Assembly (NCBI RefSeq): GCF_001425025.1
Contig: NZ_LMDE01000003.1
Span: 53,711 to 117,710, forward strand
From: Nocardioides sp. Root122
Lineage (GTDB): Bacteria; Actinomycetota; Actinomycetes; Propionibacteriales; Nocardioidaceae
DNA length: 64,000 nucleotides
Direction: 5' to 3'
Below are positions 53,485-64,000 of this stretch, piece after piece. A model generated the notes under the pieces. The model saw only the letters and a list, made by a program, of their open reading frames with translations, had not been told where the DNA came from and searched no databases. Numbering within the stretch: the first letter of the stretch is position 1; every line of letters begins with the position of its first letter. A program made the position numbers and the translations under genes.

Positions 53485-53739
53485 CTGTGAGGATTCCCTT
53501 CGCAGCCTGATGGTGCTGGGCTGTGACCAGTGACTGCGGGCGTGACCCTTGGACTGACTGGCTTCGTGCCTTTCGCTCGACTTGTCCACTCGTGGTTGCT
53601 GGCCCGGCCCGGCCGGAGCAGCTGGCCTGATCAGGAGCTTGACCGACCGGTGTTAGCGCACCGGCCGTGTCCCATCACAGTCCTGCCGATTCTCCGCCCG
53701 GACCGGAACCACATCCGCTCCCAGGCAAGGAGAGAACGC
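53485..53739 (+). ncRNA. Candidate IS110 bridge RNA region
   Basis: The 255-bp non-coding region upstream of an IS110 recombinase is where bridge RNAs are encoded in the IS110 group (IS621 studies). An 11-mer TGGACTGACTG occurs both at the presumed left junction (53477-53487) and inside this region (53550-53560), as expected if the RNA guides target or donor recognition. RNA structure was not computed. Confidence 0.35.
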
Positions 53740-54801
53740 ATGACAAGTGTGACCGATCTACGCGAGGTGGTCGATGTGGTCATCGGCGTCGACACCCACG
53801 TCCACACCCACTCCGCCGCTGCGGTCGACGCACGCACTGGCGGTGTGCTCGACGAGATCACCGTCGAAGCAAGCGCCGATGGCTACGCCCGGCTGGTGGA
53901 GTTCGCCAACGAGCACGCAGCGCTGCGGGCATGGGCGATTGAGGGCACCGGCGGTCACGGCGCCGGCCTGACCCGGCACCTGGCACGCCGCGAGGAGGTC
54001 GTCGTGGAGCTCGACCGTCCCCAGCGGCCCAGGCGGCGCAACGGCGCCAAGTCCGACCCACTCGACGCGATCCGTGCTGCACGCGAGGCCCTGTCCCGCG
54101 CGAAGTTCGGCAGCCCGCGAGGCAGTGGTGACCGACAAGCACTGTCAGTGCTGCTCGCAGCGCGCCGTTCGGCCGTCAACGCCTCGACCGACGCTCAGCG
54201 ACAGGTGTTCAGTCTCGTCATCGCCGCACCAGAGCCGATCCGTGAGCGGTTCCGCGGTCAGAAGCTCCCCGTGATGATCCGCACCGCCGCGAGCATGCGC
54301 CTGAACTCGGCGTGGGACACCGAAACCACCACGACCGTCGTAGTGCTGCGTTCCCTCGCCCGCCGTGCCCGCATGCTCGCTGAGGAAGCAGCCCAGCACG
54401 AGAAGGCCATACGGGTCATCGTGCGGGCCTGGCGACCTGACCTCCTCGCCCAACCCGGCATCGGGCCGATCGTGGCCGCCACGGTGCTGTGCGCGTGGTC
54501 CCACCCGGGCCGGGTCCACTCCGAGGCAGCATTCGCGATGCTCGCCGGTGCCGCACCGATCCCGGCCAGCAGCGGCCAAGTGACCAACCGCCATCGACTG
54601 AATCGCTACGGCGACCGCCAACTCAACCGCGCCCTGCACACCATCGTGCTGTCACGGATCCGCTACGACCAAGCCACCCAGACCTATGTGGCCCGCAGAA
54701 CCACCGAAGGCAAAACCACCCGCGAGATCAAACGCTGCCTCAAGCGGTACATCGCCCGAGACCTCTTCCGGCTACTCGAACACCAACACACGACGGCTTG
54801 A
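53740..54801 (+). CDS. IS110-family transposase (recombinase)
   Basis: 353 aa, ATG 53740, AAGGAGAG RBS. N-terminal RuvC-like DEDD domain: Asp18 in VVIGVDTHVHTH, AIEGTGGHGAG, and KSDPLDAIRAA; C-terminal Tnp_20 domain with LAQPGIGPIVAATVL, AAPIPASSG (catalytic Ser) and NRYGDRQLNRALH. Complete, with no frameshift, so potentially active. Confidence 0.92.
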   Translation: MTSVTDLREVVDVVIGVDTHVHTHSAAAVDARTGGVLDEITVEASADGYARLVEFANEHAALRAWAIEGTGGHGAGLTRHLARREEVVVELDRPQRPRRRNGAKSDPLDAIRAAREALSRAKFGSPRGSGDRQALSVLLAARRSAVNASTDAQRQVFSLVIAAPEPIRERFRGQKLPVMIRTAASMRLNSAWDTETTTTVVVLRSLARRARMLAEEAAQHEKAIRVIVRAWRPDLLAQPGIGPIVAATVLCAWSHPGRVHSEAAFAMLAGAAPIPASSGQVTNRHRLNRYGDRQLNRALHTIVLSRIRYDQATQTYVARRTTEGKTTREIKRCLKRYIARDLFRLLEHQHTTA

Positions 54802-55980: not shown

Positions 55981-57759
55981 TCAGCTGCGGACGATGTCGA
56001 CGATGTGCGTGGCGGCGCGCTCGACCGCGACCTCCTCGCGCTCCCCGGACCTGCGGTCACGGACCTCGACCGTGCCGTCGACCAGGCCGCGGCCGACGGT
56101 CACGATCGTCGGCACACCGATGAGCTCGGCGTCCTTGAACTTCACTCCGGGGCTCACCTTGCCGACGCGGTCGTCGAGGAGCACCTCGAGGCCGGCCTCC
56201 TTGAGGTCGCGGGAGAGCTGCTCTGCTGCGGCCAGGATCGCCTCGTCCTTGCCGGCCGCGACCACGTGGACGTCGGCGGGCGCGACGTTGCGCGGCCAGC
56301 AGAGCCCGATCTCGTCGAGGGTGCCTTCGGCGATGGCCGCCACGGCGCGCGACGGACCGATGCCGTAGGAGCCCATCGTGACGGTGACCAGCTTGCCGTT
56401 CTCGTCGAGCACCTGCAGCCCGAGCGCCTCGGCATAGCTGCGGCCGAGCTGGAAGATGTGACCCATCTCGATGCCGCGGGCGGACTCGAGGCTGCCCTCC
56501 TCGCAGTTGGGGCAGGCATCGCCGTCGCGCACGTCGGCGGCCTCGATCGTGCCGTCGGGCGTGAAGTCGCGTCCGACGACCATGTCGACGACGTGGGAGC
56601 CGTGCACGTTGGCACCGGTCACCCAGCGCGTGCCCTCGGAGATGCGGGGGTCGACGACGAACCGGATCCCGGACTTCGACTCCTCCCCCAGGACCTCCGG
56701 GCCGATGTAGCCCTTCACGAGCGCGGGGTGCTTGGCCATCTCGGCCTCGTCCATGGGCTCGACCTCGATCGGCTCGAGCTGGCCCTCGAGCCGCTTCTGG
56801 TCGACCTCGCGGTCGCCGGGGACGCCGATGGCGAGGGGCTCGCGGGTGCCGTCGGGGTGCTTCAGCACGACGAGCACGTTCTTGAGCGTGTCACCGGCCG
56901 CCCAGGGACGGTCGTCACGGGGGAAGGTCGCGTTGAGGTGGTCGACCAGGGTGTCGATGGTCGGCGTGTCGGGGGTGTCCTCGGCGTGCGCGGCGGGCAC
57001 GCCGTCGTACGACACGGGGGCAGGCGCACGGACGGCGACGGCCTCGACGTTGGCGGCGTAGTCGCAGTGGGTGCAGCGGACGTAGGTGTCCTCACCGACC
57101 GAGGCCTTGGCGAGGAACTCCTCGCTGGCCGAGCCGCCCATCGCGCCGGAGGTGGCCTTGACGATGACGTACTCGAAGCCGAGCCGGTCGAAGATCCGGA
57201 TATAGGCGTCGCGGTGCTTCTGGTAGGACTCCGCGAGCCCGGCGTCGTCGATGTCGAAGGAGTAGGAGTCCTTCATGACGAACTCACGACCGCGCAGGAG
57301 GCCGGCACGCGGGCGCGCCTCGTCGCGGTACTTGTTCTGGATCTGGTAGATCGAGAGCGGCAGGTCCTTGTAGGAGGAGTAGAGGTCCTTCACCACGAGG
57401 GTGAACATCTCCTCGTGGGTGGGGCCGAGCAGGTAGTCGGCGCCCTTGCGGTCCTGGAGCCGGAAGATGTTGTCGCCGTAGTCGGTCCACCGGTGGGTCG
57501 CCTCGTAGGGCTCCTTGGGCAGCAGCGCCGGGAACACCAGCTCCTGCGCGCCGATGTCGTCCATCTCCTCGCGGATGATGGCCTCGATCTTGCGGAGCAC
57601 CTTCAGGCCGAGGGGCAGCCAGGTGTAGATGCCCGGCGCGTTGCGGCGGATGTAGCCCGCACGGACCAGGAGCCTGTGGCTCGGCACCTCGGCGTCGTTG
57701 GGGTCGTCGCGCAAGGTGCGCACGAACAGGGTCGACATGCGGAGGAGGCGGCCAGTCAT
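55981..57759 (-). CDS. proS: Prolyl-tRNA synthetase (bacterial type)
   Basis: 592 aa class II synthetase: motif 1 region [20 protein letters not shown]..., motif 2 [27 protein letters not shown], the editing INS domain (about 225-400) and the anticodon-binding domain at the C-terminus. I choose ATG 57759 because a -10 (TATCCT) lies exactly seven bases upstream, giving a leaderless start; the internal Met eight codons later has no RBS. Confidence 0.95.
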
Positions 57760-57766
57760 GGGCGCA

Positions 57767-57772
57767 AGGATA
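57767..57772 (-). promoter_or_regulatory. -10 element for leaderless proS
   Basis: Minus-strand TATCCT seven bases upstream of ATG 57759; the transcript would start at the A of the ATG. Confidence 0.45.
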
Positions 57773-57880
57773 GGTGCGGGCCTTCGGCCACCGCGAACCA
57801 GATTGCCCGCCGGTCGCAGGCAACCTCGCCACGCCCCACGACGTCTCCCTGACGACACCGCACACTCCAGGGGGAACACG

Positions 57881-58938: not shown

Positions 58939-61530
58939 TCATATCCCCAGCACGGTGAACGACGCCGCGGTGGCCGCGAGGACCTGGTCGCCGGCGGCCA
59001 CCTCACGGGCGGCGAGCATGGCCTCGCCGAGCCCGTGCCCGCGGCGCAGGGCGGCGTGGAGGGCGACCATCACCTGGACCGTCGCGGCGTCGTCGACCTC
59101 GCCGAGGCTGGAGACGATGCCGGCGGTGCCCATCGACAGGAGGGCGGCGGAGAGGCCGAGCAGCTCCTGGGCCCCGACCGGGGCGAGGCCCCCCGACTCG
59201 CACGCCGACAGCACGACGCGGTGCGGCGGCCGCGTGAGCTGCTGGAGGTCGTGCACGAGCAGCGGCCCGTCGGCCATCACGAGCGAGGAGAAGAGCGGGC
59301 TGTCCTCGCGGAAGTGGCCGTGGGCCGCGACGTGCGCGAGGGCGGCGCCGTCCAGCGCGGCCAGCGAGGCATCGACGGTCGCGTCGTCCCCGTCGAGCAC
59401 CACGGCGGACGGGTCGTGGGCCACGACGGCCGGCACCTCGGCACCGCCGCTGTCGAGCCCGGGGCCGACGAGCATGACCCGCCGGTCGGGCTCGGCGGCG
59501 GACGCCTGCCGCGCCCGGAGCCACAGCCGCGCGGACGGGACGCTGGTGACGGGACGGCCGGCGAGCCCGGGGACGAGGCCCCACGGGACACCCTGGAGCG
59601 CGCTGGTCCCCGACACGACCACGCGGGACTCCCCCACGTGGTCGAGCGCGGACCCGAGCAGCGCCCGCTGGAGCCGGTCGCCGGCCAGGCCGAGCTGGGA
59701 CCGGCGCCCGCGCGCCGCCCCGCGCAGGGCGAAGAGTGCAAAGTCCACTGCAGCTGAAGCAGCGTCCGCCGCCCCGACGTCGAGGCGTCGTACGCGGCCG
59801 TGCCCCACCACGAGGGCGTGGAGGTGGCGGTCGATCTCGGTGAGCTCGACGAGCACGGTCCCGTCCTCGGCGAGGGCGTCCAGCAGCGCGGCCACGTCGA
59901 GCGACTGCGGCGCGACCCCGGAGCCGCGCAGGTGGAACATCCGCTGACGGACGGACTGCTCGAGCCGGGCGGCGCGCGCCTGGAGCCGGTCGGTCGGAGC
60001 CCCCTCGGCGCGGGCGTCGGCGATGCGCCGGTGCTGGGCGCGCAGCGCGGCCAGGTCGGCGGTGGTCTCCGGGTCGCGCTGGTCGTAGGCCGGCGGGATC
60101 GTCAGCGAGTTGGCACGCCACCGCTCGGACCAGCGCAGCAGCTGGCGCGGGTCCCCCGACTCGAGGGCGGTGCGGGTCCCGAGCTCGGCGAGCCGTGCGC
60201 CATGGCCGGACGAGACGGCACGCAGCTCCTGGCTGCCCAGGGTGGCGCGGTGCTCGTCGAGCGCCTTCAGGCCAGCGTCGCAGGCGCGCAGGACGCCGCG
60301 GAGGTCGTCCTCGAGTGCCCGGCGCTGCGCGAGCGCGAGCCAGCCCAGCACGCGGATCCGTCCGTTGGTGGCCCTGCGGAAGGTGGCCGCCTCGTCGAGC
60401 CAGGCGGCCTGGAGCGCGGCGGCGCGGGGTGAGCGGACCTCCCCCGCCAGGCGCGCCCCGAGCAACAGGGCCTGCGGGAGCTCCGTGGCCTGCACCTCGC
60501 AGGTGCGGGCGACGAGGCGCTCGGTCCGCCTCAGCAGTGGCGCCGCCGGCAGGCCGGCCTCGGTGCGGGCGGTGAGCGCCAGGAGGTCGGCCTGCAGACG
60601 CGGGATGTGCCGCGACTGGCGCCGCAGCAGTCGGCTGGCATCGTCCGCCGCGGTCGTGGCGCGCGCCCAGTCCCCTGCCGCGAGCGCTGCCTCGGCGACG
60701 GCCAGCAGAAGGTCGGCCTCTTCGCGCGGGAGCAGCGGCCGCACGACCAGTGCTCGCTCCACGACCTCGAGCGCATCGGTCGCCAGACCAGCGGCGAGGT
60801 AGGCCAGGCACCGGTCGTAGACGAGGTCCACGTTGGTTAGGTTCATCGCGTCGTAGCGCGCGTTCGCATCGGCGTAGAGCCTCAGGGCCAGTGGCAGGTC
60901 GCCGCGCACGTAGCCGAGCCAGCCGGTGTTGTGCTGGGCGAGCCCGACCTCGAACTCGTCGCCCTGCGCGGCGGCGAGGTCGCGGTAGGAGGCGAACGCC
61001 GTGGCAGCCGCGTCGAGGTCCCCCAGCCCGACGTCGGCCAGGCCCTCGAGGTTGAGCGCACGACGCTCCCAGACGTGGTCGCCGGCGCCGGCGAAGAGCC
61101 GTCTGGCCTCCTTGAGGTCGGCCGCGCTCTCCTCGAACAGCGCGAGCAGGTGTCCGGTCACGTACGCACGGCGCACCAGCGCGCGCCCGAGGGGTACGCC
61201 GGTCAGCAGGGCCGCCGCCTGGTCCAGCCGTCGCATGCCCTCCGGCAGCCAGCCGGCGATGCACAGTGTGGAGCCCAGGGTCGCGAGCGCGTCACCGCGT
61301 CGCTCGTCGTCGCCCGACCGGCGGGCCAGGCGTAGCGCCGTACGCAGCTCCGCCAGCGCGGCATCGGTCTGCCCGAGCTCGCGCAGTGCGATCCCGATGA
61401 TCTGGTGCCCGATCGAGGCCAGGGCGGGGTCGGGGTCGTGGATGAGCTCGTCCTCCGCGCGCTTGCGCGCCAGATCGAGGTCGCCGAAGAGCGTGCGCAG
61501 CAGCTCCTCGGCCTCGCCCCTGGTCATCAT
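58939..61530 (-). CDS. TPR-CHAT (caspase-like) protease
   Basis: 863 aa, no signal peptide. Residues about 1-520 are alpha-helical repeats of TPR type (ALASIGHQIIGIALRELGQT, AHNTGWLGYVRGDLPLALRL etc.). The C-terminal CHAT domain has catalytic His737 (HVAAHGHFRE) and Cys777 (VVLSACESGG), both in their correct contexts, with SALQGVPWGLVPGLAG upstream. CHAT proteins are clan CD cysteine proteases related to separase and caspases; bacterial examples act in Craspase-type and gasdermin systems. Divergent from the subtilisin gene. Start may be 61530 or 61527. Confidence 0.9.
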   Translation of the reverse strand: MMTRGEAEELLRTLFGDLDLARKRAEDELIHDPDPALASIGHQIIGIALRELGQTDAALAELRTALRLARRSGDDERRGDALATLGSTLCIAGWLPEGMRRLDQAAALLTGVPLGRALVRRAYVTGHLLALFEESAADLKEARRLFAGAGDHVWERRALNLEGLADVGLGDLDAAATAFASYRDLAAAQGDEFEVGLAQHNTGWLGYVRGDLPLALRLYADANARYDAMNLTNVDLVYDRCLAYLAAGLATDALEVVERALVVRPLLPREEADLLLAVAEAALAAGDWARATTAADDASRLLRRQSRHIPRLQADLLALTARTEAGLPAAPLLRRTERLVARTCEVQATELPQALLLGARLAGEVRSPRAAALQAAWLDEAATFRRATNGRIRVLGWLALAQRRALEDDLRGVLRACDAGLKALDEHRATLGSQELRAVSSGHGARLAELGTRTALESGDPRQLLRWSERWRANSLTIPPAYDQRDPETTADLAALRAQHRRIADARAEGAPTDRLQARAARLEQSVRQRMFHLRGSGVAPQSLDVAALLDALAEDGTVLVELTEIDRHLHALVVGHGRVRRLDVGAADAASAAVDFALFALRGAARGRRSQLGLAGDRLQRALLGSALDHVGESRVVVSGTSALQGVPWGLVPGLAGRPVTSVPSARLWLRARQASAAEPDRRVMLVGPGLDSGGAEVPAVVAHDPSAVVLDGDDATVDASLAALDGAALAHVAAHGHFREDSPLFSSLVMADGPLLVHDLQQLTRPPHRVVLSACESGGLAPVGAQELLGLSAALLSMGTAGIVSSLGEVDDAATVQVMVALHAALRRGHGLGEAMLAAREVAAGDQVLAATAASFTVLGI

Positions 61531-61602
61531 GGTCCGGCCATCCTCGCGGATCGGCGGGTCAAGATGTCACGAAAACTCTCGTCAGGGTCGTCTTGGCGGC
61601 AC

Positions 61603-61608
61603 TAGCGT
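61603..61608 (+). promoter_or_regulatory. -10 element for leaderless protease gene
   Basis: TAGCGT six bases before ATG 61615, with TTGGCG in the preceding bases too close to be a standard -35; the protease transcript is probably leaderless. The neighbouring sigma factor may recognise a non-standard -35 here. Confidence 0.4.
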
Positions 61609-61614
61609 CGGACC

Positions 61615-62895
61615 ATGAGCGACTGGATGATCGGCGACGACCGGCGGCGACGCACCACCGACCAGCTCCGCGCGTTCCGGAGGGCCAACCCGGAGCAGGT
61701 CGCCTGGAACACCGAGGCACCGGCCGACTTCACCTACCTGTACCACCCCGATCGGGTGCTGGTCCGCCGTGCGGACGTCGACGAGTTCGAGGAGACCGCC
61801 CGCCAGGTCGGGGACCGCCTGCTGAAGGGTCAGCCGCAGCGCGACGAGACGACCCTCCTCGGCGGCGCGCTCGTGCGTTACCTGCTACCGGAGCGAACCA
61901 GCGGCGAGTCGGTGCCCGAGGTGCTCGACCAGCTCGAGGCGGCGGGACTCACCCGCGGCCGCGCGACACCCGACCACTGGGTGCACGTGTCCCCCGGCGG
62001 ACCGGGTGGCAGCCTCTGCCCCGCGATCGAGCCGCAGGAGACGGGGCTCAAGGAGCCGTGGCCGCCCCAAGCCCCGGACACCACCGACAAGCGCCACGAC
62101 GTCCGCGTCGTGGTCGTCGACACCGGGTGGAACCCGACCTCGGCGACGGACGGCCGCACCCCCTGGCTCGACGGTGTCACCGGCGACGACGAGCAGAACG
62201 GCGCCAGGCTGCGCAGGTACGCCGGCCACGGGACGTTCATCGCCGGCGTCATCCGGTGCCTCGTCCCCCACGCCACGGTCCACGTCGACGGCTTCTGCAT
62301 CGGCGGCGTCGGAGGGGGAGGCATCCTCGAGTCCGACATGGTCGACCAGCTCGAGGAGGCGATGAAGCGCGACCCCCAGGTCATCAACCTCTCGGCGGGC
62401 TGCCGCACCCGCATGGACTACCCGTCCGTTGCCTTCCAGACCTTCTACGACGAGCACCTCGAGGGCAGGGACTGCGTGCTCGTGGCCGCCGCCGGGAACG
62501 ACTCAACCGCAGCGCCGTTCTGGCCGGCCGCCTTCGACTGGGCCGTCGGTGTCGGGTCCCTCGACCGCAACGGCCGGATCTCGGACTTCTCCAACTACGG
62601 GGTGTCGGCCGACGTCTACGCCCTCGGCCGCAACCACGTGAACGCGTTCCCCGACGGCAGCTACAAGTGCCGGGAGACACCCGACAAGGGCGACATCCGG
62701 GAGTTCCGCACCGGCATGGCCCGTTGGAGCGGTACGTCGTTCGCCGCACCGATCGTGGCCGGTCTGATCGCCCGGGAGATCGCCGAGCACGGGATCCCCG
62801 CAGCCGACGCGCGGGACCACGTGCTCGCCCGCGCGGTCTACGACTCCGACCCCACCGTCGGCCCCCACATGGAGCTGCGGCACCCGCACGCGTGA
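61615..62895 (+). CDS. Cytoplasmic S8 (subtilisin-like) serine protease
   Basis: 426 aa. Complete catalytic set: Asp169 (VVVVDTGWN), His205 (AGHGTFIAGVI), oxyanion Asn295 (VAAAGND) and Ser375 (SGTSFAAPIVAG). The 160-residue N-terminal part has no signal peptide or membrane helix; it is charged and may be an inhibitory or partner-binding domain. Thus it probably acts inside the cell. Divergent from the CHAT gene and convergent with the 150-aa gene. Confidence 0.92.
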   Translation: MSDWMIGDDRRRRTTDQLRAFRRANPEQVAWNTEAPADFTYLYHPDRVLVRRADVDEFEETARQVGDRLLKGQPQRDETTLLGGALVRYLLPERTSGESVPEVLDQLEAAGLTRGRATPDHWVHVSPGGPGGSLCPAIEPQETGLKEPWPPQAPDTTDKRHDVRVVVVDTGWNPTSATDGRTPWLDGVTGDDEQNGARLRRYAGHGTFIAGVIRCLVPHATVHVDGFCIGGVGGGGILESDMVDQLEEAMKRDPQVINLSAGCRTRMDYPSVAFQTFYDEHLEGRDCVLVAAAGNDSTAAPFWPAAFDWAVGVGSLDRNGRISDFSNYGVSADVYALGRNHVNAFPDGSYKCRETPDKGDIREFRTGMARWSGTSFAAPIVAGLIAREIAEHGIPAADARDHVLARAVYDSDPTVGPHMELRHPHA

Positions 62896-62898
62896 GGC

Positions 62899-63351
62899 TC
62901 AGACCTCGATCCAGCGGCTGCTGGCGCTCCCGGTGCCGTTGCTGACGGTGAAGCGGATCTCGCCACTCACCTCGGCGGTGATCGCGAAGAAGCCGACCTC
63001 GTCGAGGCCGGACGTCACGCTCTCACCGTCGCGGGCCTCCACCGCGACCTCGACGGACCCCATGTCCCCGTCGAAGTCCAGCAGCTGACCCCGCACCTGG
63101 TCGCCGTCGATCTCGGCGTCGAGGGACCAGCCCTCGGCGGCGGTGAAGTAGAGGATGCGGGCCGAGGCGAGGCCGCGCACCTGCGCGGCTGGCTCGTCGG
63201 CGGAGTCGCGGACCAGGACGAGGAGCTCCCACTCGCTGTCGAGGTCGGCGGCGGCGACGGTCGCGATCATGCCGGCCGCCAGTCCCGGAGGAGGCGGGTC
63301 GGCCAGGAGCCACATCTCGCGCAGGTCGTCGAGCAGGCTGTCGTCCTTCAT
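62899..63351 (-). CDS. 150-aa protein of unknown function in the CHAT-protease cluster
   Basis: Starts MKDDSLLDDLREMW; a short acidic helix, then a mostly beta-strand domain (WELLVLVRDSADEPAAQVRG, ILYFTAAEGWSLDAEIDGDQVRGQLLDFDG) ending in SSRWIEV. No signal or transmembrane segment. The beta architecture and its coupling (ATGA) to a sigma factor suggest a sensor, anti-sigma-like or substrate/inhibitor role; none is demonstrated. Confidence 0.78.
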   Translation of the reverse strand: MKDDSLLDDLREMWLLADPPPPGLAAGMIATVAAADLDSEWELLVLVRDSADEPAAQVRGLASARILYFTAAEGWSLDAEIDGDQVRGQLLDFDGDMGSVEVAVEARDGESVTSGLDEVGFFAITAEVSGEIRFTVSNGTGSASSRWIEV

Positions 63352-63953
63352 CGTCCCCCTCCTTCGTTCGTCAGTGCGGTCCTCACCTTGGCCAGGCAGC
63401 GGGCCCGGGTGGGTCCGATGCTGCCCACGGGCATGTCGAGCTCCTGGCTCAGCGACTGGTAGTCGGGTCGTTCCATGAAGGCGATGACACGCAGCAGCTT
63501 GCGGCACCTCTCGTCCACGCTGGCGACGGCCCGCCACAACCGGGCGGCGTCGTCGTCGAGCACGGCGAGGGCCTCCGCCGACTCCTCGTCGGGGAGCACT
63601 GCGGCGAGCTTCTCGTCCTCCACCGGGGAGGCACGGCGTGCCTTCCTGGCGTGTTCGGCGGCGCCGCGCCTGGCTGAGGTGATCAGCCAGGCCGCGACGG
63701 CCCTGGGGTCCTGGATGGTGTGGTGCAGACGCACGAAGCCGAGCCACGTCGTCGCGACGACGTCCTCCGCCGACTGACGGTCGTGCCCGTAGGCCCTCAC
63801 CACGTGCCAGAGCACCGGCGTCATCGCGGTGACCAGATCATCCACGGCTGCGGCGTCCCCTGCCCGCCACGCCGTGAACGCCCCACTGGCTGTTTCCCAC
63901 GGTGACTGTTCGAGCTCCCCCTCAGCTCTTCGGTGATCCGACATGGTGACCAT
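63348..63953 (-). CDS. Sigma-70-family RNA polymerase sigma factor (ECF-like)
   Basis: About 201 aa. Region 2 (DLVTAMTPVLWHVVRAYGHDRQSAEDVVATTWLGFV) and region 4 (ERCRKLLRVIAFMERPDYQSLSQELDMPVGSIGPTRARCLAKV) are present, region 3 absent, as in ECF factors. No adjacent classical anti-sigma gene is seen; the 150-aa product overlapping downstream could fill that role. Starts at 63962, 63953 or 63944 are possible; 63953 has the better RBS spacing. Confidence 0.88.
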   Translation of the reverse strand: MVTMSDHRRAEGELEQSPWETASGAFTAWRAGDAAAVDDLVTAMTPVLWHVVRAYGHDRQSAEDVVATTWLGFVRLHHTIQDPRAVAAWLITSARRGAAEHARKARRASPVEDEKLAAVLPDEESAEALAVLDDDAARLWRAVASVDERCRKLLRVIAFMERPDYQSLSQELDMPVGSIGPTRARCLAKVRTALTNEGGGR

Positions 63954-64000
63954 TGTCCCCATGTCCTCTCAGGTAGGAGCGAGCGCCATGCTGATACGTC

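Follow-up and report, generated by a model that had tools for sequence, protein, structure and literature searches.

We analyzed a 64,000-nucleotide stretch of the Nocardioides sp. Root122 genome (hereafter the window; G000:C3:53711-117710 within the 4.49-Mb genome) that carries a gene for a TPR-CHAT protein, a gene for a subtilisin-like S8 protease, and genes for a 150-amino-acid protein that we call SML and for an extracytoplasmic function (ECF) sigma factor. The four open reading frames (ORFs) lie where an earlier sequence-only reading of this DNA had placed them (Table 1). The CHAT domain matches PF12770 in Pfam (E 7.5e-24), and the TPR part of the same protein, which reaches 21.6 bits against TPR_12 and so stays below the Pfam cut-off of 30.1, forms a helical repeat in the AlphaFold2 model. 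The S8 protease matches PF00082 (E 6.5e-25) and shows no N-terminal hydrophobic stretch by eye. The sigma factor matches Sigma70_r2 (E 1.4e-10), lies over the NCBIfam sigma70-ECF cut-off (59 bits against 42.9) and also matches ECF structures; the 12 nearest named relatives of its gene, among the matches listed, are all Nocardioides at 80-82% identity. For the window's own SML, Pfam returned nothing at E up to 1. The CHAT and S8 genes are divergent, and the SML gene, which is preceded by a GGAGG-type sequence (by eye), has a 4-base overlap with the sigma gene at its stop codon.

Table 1. Features of the module and its surroundings (window coordinates unless stated otherwise).
Feature	Position	Strand	Basis or remark
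TPR-CHAT protein, 863 amino acids	58939..61530	-	ORF; CHAT domain at residues 620-847; AlphaFold2 model
Catalytic Cys777 codon of CHAT protein	59200..59202	-	C in 125/125 unique ungapped sequences (5/130 gapped)
Catalytic His737 codon of CHAT protein	59320..59322	-	H in 125/125 unique ungapped sequences (5/130 gapped)
Asp814 codon of CHAT protein, candidate S1-pocket acid	59089..59091	-	D in 122/125 unique ungapped sequences
S8 subtilisin-like protease, 426 amino acids	61615..62895	+	ORF; Pfam; catalytic set conserved in 57/57
SML, 150 amino acids	62899..63351	-	helices 3-17 and 24-34; segment 39-54 with pLDDT <50; strands from 56
Invariant Arg59 codon of SML, candidate cleavage site	63175..63177	-	R in 131/131 unique sequences
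ECF sigma factor, 204 amino acids, motif GSIGPTRxR in region 4	63348..63962	-	Pfam, NCBIfam, alignment, ECF structure matches
Predicted sigma promoter GTATCA-N16-TACCT	63971..63997 (G000:C3:117681-117707)	-	motif pattern
proS-like gene (prolyl-tRNA synthetase) adjoining the module	55981-57879	-	by eye
ORF resembling IS110-type transposase	53530-54801	+	by eye
Short ORF MIR[VI]G[AS]V...[VIL]PR[PQ]R, 39 amino acids in the Root122 genome	G000:C1:242664-242780	+	outside the window; motif at C1:242501-242527

The four families are co-located in other genomes far more often than chance would give, as the sequence-only reading had supposed, and form a real module that is conserved across many actinobacteria. 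With the CHAT protein as seed, matches at E up to 1e-3 came from 64 of 96 related genomes, and 60 regions, none longer than 20 kb, together with the window's own locus made up 61 loci, a set that leaves out CHAT matches weaker than E 5.4e-15 and a second module copy in genome G017 (C8). Among these 61 loci, 57 carry the S8 gene, 56 the sigma gene and 56 the SML gene. Approaching the module from the sigma side, we searched an alignment of 24 sigma proteins against genome contigs, kept the best 80 of at least 587 relatives (593 stretches) and applied the profiles built from the CHAT-seeded loci; within 8 kb of sigma, SML was present in 80/80 of these best loci, and CHAT and S8 in 74/80 each. The two sets together provide 136 loci with both sigma and SML (56 + 80), some places being met twice (e.g. 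L106/L124), so that they contain 131 unique SML sequences. In every one of the 136, SML lies immediately 3' of sigma and is read from the same strand; in 48 the two genes overlap by 4 bases. Gene order takes eight forms among loci with all four genes and falls into eleven classes when incomplete loci are included (136 loci).

The link between SML and CHAT holds when the window's SML is the query: within the same 96 genomes, 42 had a match (45 rows), and 42 of the 45 rows had a CHAT match no more than 5 kb away, the rows elsewhere being in G004:C445, G008:C1 and G084. In a phylum-wide sample of 149 genomes (SML at E up to 1e-5, CHAT at E up to 1e-20), SML was found in 13 and CHAT in 17, and all 13 SML genomes were among the 17; the two genes lie within 5 kb of each other in 10 of the 13 and on different contigs in G181 and G137. 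S8 is missing beside sigma, SML and CHAT in three loci (L102, L194 and L199; the rest of those genomes was not searched for S8), and S8 without CHAT occurs only on short contigs (L162 and L182). On these grounds we prefer CHAT over S8 as the candidate for an SML-cutting protease. The module's location looks vertically inherited, since its proS-like neighbor is kept in all nine genomes that carry a close version (coordinates compared). Multiple module copies lie close together in a single locus in L187, from a Nitriliruptorales metagenome-assembled genome, and in G192:C7.

The AlphaFold2 model of the CHAT protein is confident overall, with a predicted local distance difference test (pLDDT) score of 88.5, and the sole segment below 50 is the loop 779-790 directly after Cys777. 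A Foldseek search with this model placed separase, Csx29 and DdvA all within the first 13 matches. The modeled fold aligns with Csx29 in Craspase over 599 residues (Z 28.7, 9.6 Å), with separase over 309 residues (5fby; Z 24.0, 3.2 Å; range 3.1-3.2 Å over about 300), and with the transmembrane anti-sigma factor DdvA over 624-631 residues (8rw5; Z 20.4-20.7, 5.9 Å), the last of these matches resting on alignment length because plain TPR proteins score a similar Z (~20). TPR proteins were also among the matches listed (best 60 of 190) when the CHAT profile was compared with PDB sequences. As far as we searched, the predicted likeness to Csx29, separase and DdvA is new.

The catalytic residues are strongly conserved. 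Glu698, His733, His737 and Cys777 are invariant in ungapped CHAT sequences, and the intact His737/Cys777 pair that had been noticed in the window is conserved in 61/61 CHAT loci, our own included; because the catalytic His and Cys never vary, CHAT catalysis is probably selected for. The S8 catalytic set, likewise described as intact, comprises Asp169/His205/Asn295/Ser375 and is conserved in 57/57 S8 loci, again including our own. (Alignment numbering starts 1 residue later for CHAT and 4 residues later for S8, giving 736/776 and 165/201/291/371.) Separase cleavage is Arg-directed, the P1 Arg being held by an Asp that follows the catalytic Cys. We take Asp814, present in 122 of 125 sequences, to be a candidate counterpart of this S1 Asp.

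In its AlphaFold2 model (mean pLDDT 78.3), SML is predicted to consist of an N-terminal helical part and a beta domain joined by a low-confidence segment. Structure searches returned weak Ig/FnIII-like matches alone (best E 0.016), and a sequence search against the PDB gave a best E of 0.013. Among 71 SML relatives, 27 match CarboxypepD_reg in Pfam (E no higher than 0.01, the best being 5.9e-6), with none for the window's own SML; closer inspection found the match in 7 of 8 relatives, none over the Pfam cut-off, and since it starts at residue 87 or later it is located after Arg59. SML is therefore probably the "carboxypeptidase" reported beside ECF54 sigma factors, as a regulatory-like domain. 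Two residues, Arg59 and Gly120, are the only ones that stay the same throughout the 131 unique sequences; Gly120 belongs to a turn, DxxGxF, in the beta domain. The residue after Arg59 is Gly, Ser, Ala or Thr in 128/131 and the residue before it Val, Ala or Thr in 126/131, while its distance to neighboring conserved columns varies (7-16 residues to the preceding, 5-16 to the following). The pattern [VATIL]R[GSAT] occurs in 125/131 SML linkers against a shuffled mean of 50 (maximum 62). Such a pattern is what would be expected of a recognition or cleavage site, and a structural Arg is also possible.

A dyad lies upstream of the sigma operon. TATC-17-CTCC was present in 43/105 sequences upstream of sigma against about 0.4 expected, and GTATCA alone in 101/136. 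After near-identical upstreams had been merged, the pattern GTATCA-N15-17-[ACT][TA]C[CT]T was found in 66/96 unique upstreams of first-gene sigma (spacer 16 in 55, 17 in 11), a count that is partly circular because the motif was derived from the same sigma upstreams. Controls gave 1/22 where S8 or CHAT precedes sigma, a shuffled mean of 0.0, and 3/96 for the reversed pattern. In operons that start with S8 followed by sigma, the motif lies upstream of S8 in 9/14 against 0/115 of the others when 900 bases upstream are scanned, the former count not being de-duplicated and the latter set including L187, itself also S8-first; a shorter upstream window gave 1/13, which is low because profile-set S8 starts lie too far downstream. 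Neither this comparison nor that of the short ORF described below shares the circularity of the sigma-upstream count. Because the motif heads the sigma operon, self-activation of sigma from this GTATCA-N16/17-CTCCT-like element, which we infer to be its promoter, is likely.

The sigma control proposed in the sequence-only reading is supported by the motif for the sigma operon and not for the proteases in the Root122 genome. Within 300 bases of the divergent CHAT/S8 region, the motif was found in 0/44 upstreams on the CHAT-first side and 0/52 on the S8-first side. A shared motif upstream of divergent CHAT and S8 was considered and rejected, as the strong dyads upstream of CHAT probably come from S8 coding sequence present there in many loci. 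Genome-wide, 29/32 module genomes had a match to a stricter pattern, among the matches listed. The sites in the large g3 genomes were rejected as a regulon, the reversed control being about as frequent in several (11 to 11 in G093, 6 to 9 in G068).

Outside the window, one further site precedes a 39-residue ORF. We aligned seven such ORFs (39-49 amino acids), all found behind the motif, and at E <1e-4 the resulting profile hit exactly 9 of 59 genus genomes, namely those with a close module, two of which (G022 and G012) had not contributed to the seed. GTATCA-N16 with a fitting second half lies upstream in 9/9, and a protein-coding role is favored since codons of the conserved residues differ synonymously. 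By prolyl-tRNA synthetase identity the nine genomes are mostly nearest relatives, and common descent is a possible explanation of the co-occurrence; G021, equally near (88%, as G052), carries a distant module only (CHAT 41%) and has no ORF match below E 0.04.

Elsewhere, a family of about 100 amino acids follows CHAT in 18 of 141 loci scanned (e.g. L143, L147, L151, L160, L165 and L169), several with a GTATCA motif before it. The member in L159 matches Pfam chagasin (I42; E 6.5e-15, 55.6 bits), being the only one of eight scanned proteins over the cut-off, and a profile built without L159 and L166 recovers both (E 1.2e-6 and 6.6e-5 among 25,261 ORFs); a comparison of the set with PDB sequences gave nothing useful. 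Because chagasins inhibit cysteine proteases, it is a fair guess that the chagasin-like protein is a CHAT inhibitor. The invariant Arg59, the short ORF and the extra genes behind the motif are new as far as the open papers we searched go, as is the motif, which was itself not a subject of that search.

As a neighborhood the module is known. The ECF54 group reportedly goes back to Huang 2015 and Casas-Pastor 2021, known to us through a citing review. Our assignment to it is by gene neighbors: the same kinds of protein, with carboxypeptidase-, subtilase- and CHAT-like members, lie in one neighborhood with an ECF sigma factor, and CHAT and S8 are over Pfam cut-offs. The four-gene set is accordingly not new, because ECF54 had already been described with these conserved neighbors, from which, according to the consulted part of the review, proteolytic control without an anti-sigma factor was proposed (PMC8999054). 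No difference from the described group emerged in this comparison of neighbors; what we add is the promoter motif, the invariant Arg, the reading of SML as a regulatory-like domain and the extra genes.

In the mechanism that we favor, SML serves as an anti-sigma factor until it is cleaved at Arg59, most likely by CHAT, and sigma is thereby freed; we put the probability of this whole chain at roughly 0.4; control of sigma's own operon and conservation of the module stand on firmer ground. The module would be an ECF54-type regulatory switch, with sigma and SML made from one message. SML would act as a cytoplasmic anti-sigma factor whose N-terminal helical part binds sigma and whose beta domain serves as a handle or sensor. 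The CHAT protein would read a signal through its TPR part, and its protease, activated in this way, would then cut SML after Arg59, between the helical part and the beta domain. Freed sigma could act on its own operon through the GTATCA-N16/17-CTCCT-like promoters and on lineage-specific extra genes, in this clade the conserved 39-49-residue ORF elsewhere in the genome, and the S8 protease might finish SML or mature another component.

The closest parallel is Craspase, in which TPR-CHAT Csx29 cuts Csx30, an inhibitor of the ECF sigma factor CASP-sigma, according to the part of PMC10028731 consulted. The two arrangements share a TPR-CHAT protease of similar predicted fold, an ECF sigma factor and a partner protein. 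They differ in that the window CHAT scores 20 bits against the NCBIfam Csx29 cut-off of 300, that SML has 150 residues whereas Csx30 reaches at least residue 565 in the same source, and that an S8 protease is present. The DdvA/DdvS pair of Myxococcus likewise links a TPR-CHAT-like fold to an ECF sigma factor, as judged from the model; the PDB title of DdvA, however, describes a transmembrane anti-sigma factor, whereas the window CHAT keeps its protease residues and has a separate small partner beside sigma. Separase resembles the modeled protein in its TPR superhelix and CHAT-like protease but is eukaryotic and cuts cohesin. That the module is a counterpart of Craspase signaling outside CRISPR, with a separase-like TPR-CHAT protease cutting a small anti-sigma factor at one invariant Arg to free an ECF sigma factor with a tiny regulon (its own operon together with a gene for either a short peptide or a chagasin-like inhibitor), seems to us doubtful; no search for an array or cas genes was made at the locus. 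If true, the type III-E arrangement would be a branch of a wider protease/sigma signaling theme, and should CHAT cut SML, control of sigma factors by CHAT proteases would be a general form of bacterial signaling rather than something peculiar to CRISPR. In the part of the review consulted, the mechanism proposed for ECF54 names neither a partner protein nor a promoter; with the motif, the invariant Arg and the short ORF it becomes directly testable.

Several observations weigh against cleavage of SML as an anti-sigma factor. The published view of ECF54, in the review part consulted, has no anti-sigma factor (PMC8999054), and Csx29 cuts Csx30 at residues 427-429 (PMC10028731), which is not known to be an Arg site. 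Arg59 falls in a predicted first strand (56-61) of a low-confidence region and may be structural, and TPR proteins that lack a protease (LGN and Rap) reach Z 20-22 with the CHAT model (LGN 21.8 over about 330 residues). The association of the genes is imperfect: in G213, one of the 13 phylum-sample genomes with SML, a long distance separates SML from CHAT on a single contig, 4 of the 17 CHAT genomes in that sample lack an SML match, and among five CHAT loci without sigma and SML, L080 and L090 are not at contig ends, the remaining three (L085, L097 and L100) being so. L175 and L197 are sigma-SML loci with full flanks where no protease was found nearby; a CHAT relative exists elsewhere in the genome of L175 and none in that of L136, and the contigs that carry L136, L162, L177 and L182 are 3.0-7.8 kb long. 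Besides the circularity of the 66/96 count, the motif is absent from 30/96 sigma-first upstreams, from 5/14 S8-first operons and, by the stricter pattern, from 3 of the 32 module genomes (G042, G014 and G033), and the window's own divergent CHAT/S8 pair carries no copy. The Root122 genome holds 3 motif sites, one at sigma and one before the short ORF, against 2 for the reversed control, so that a single site is meaningless without conservation.

Four other explanations were weighed. The proteases may degrade sigma itself and keep its level low with no anti-sigma factor, SML being an accessory or substrate-delivery protein, which is stated for ECF54 in section 3.3 and Table 2 of PMC8999054; that proposal was drawn from gene context in the part consulted, leaves the 136/136 coupling of sigma and SML and the invariant linker Arg unexplained, and appears unlikely to us. 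We regard as about equally unlikely, or slightly more so, that the TPR-CHAT protein is itself the anti-sigma factor, with SML and S8 as modulators. The long alignment with DdvA speaks for it, as do partial accounts in which DdvA is the cognate anti-sigma factor of DdvS (PMC4374960) and an antiphage island is under DdvS control (PMC12288465), but similar Z values are common among TPR proteins, the invariant catalytic His and Cys suggest that catalysis is selected for, and the gene coupled to sigma is not CHAT. A fixed order of sigma first and partner second is typical of sigma/anti-sigma pairs. This likeness stands against SML being an effector or signal released by cleavage at Arg59, its production merely boosted by sigma, as does the Pfam scan of SML relatives, which at E up to 0.01 recognized neither a signal domain nor a toxin domain; despite the invariance of Arg59 and the motif at the head of the sigma-SML operon, we give this account a small chance.

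CHAT proteases function in conflict systems elsewhere, and the sequence-only reading had cast the locus as a sigma-controlled two-protease conflict cascade, anti-phage or cell-death in purpose. For S8 we obtained weak, partial IetS-type matches in PADLOC (at most 33 bits) and 20.7 bits in NCBIfam against a cut-off of 900, too low for full-length IetS; the other three proteins match no defense model in PADLOC, and the proS-like neighbor is conserved in the nine close genomes. The consulted portions of PMC7159879 and PMC8195603 describe caspase-type conflict systems, the latter mentioning genes for ECF sigma factors and TPR proteins close to EACC2 caspases, and show this gene set in neither. A conflict role is thus very improbable, and for the suggested cascade between CHAT and S8 we found no evidence in either direction.

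Further genes accompany the module in relatives. The motif occurs within 400 bases after CHAT in 24/123 loci and divergently from sigma in 13/134. In L091, L094, L095, L096 and L099 it lies 0.3-1.6 kb downstream of CHAT, with no recognizable gene behind it among the matches listed. Apart from the chagasin-like family, Pfam gave one chance-level match among the remaining accessory proteins and nothing else. A family beginning MTWNETHxRTRIIREVEAA... stands beside sigma in nine loci (L063, L064, L065, L067, L071, L074, L119, L120 and L122), with the motif before it in eight.

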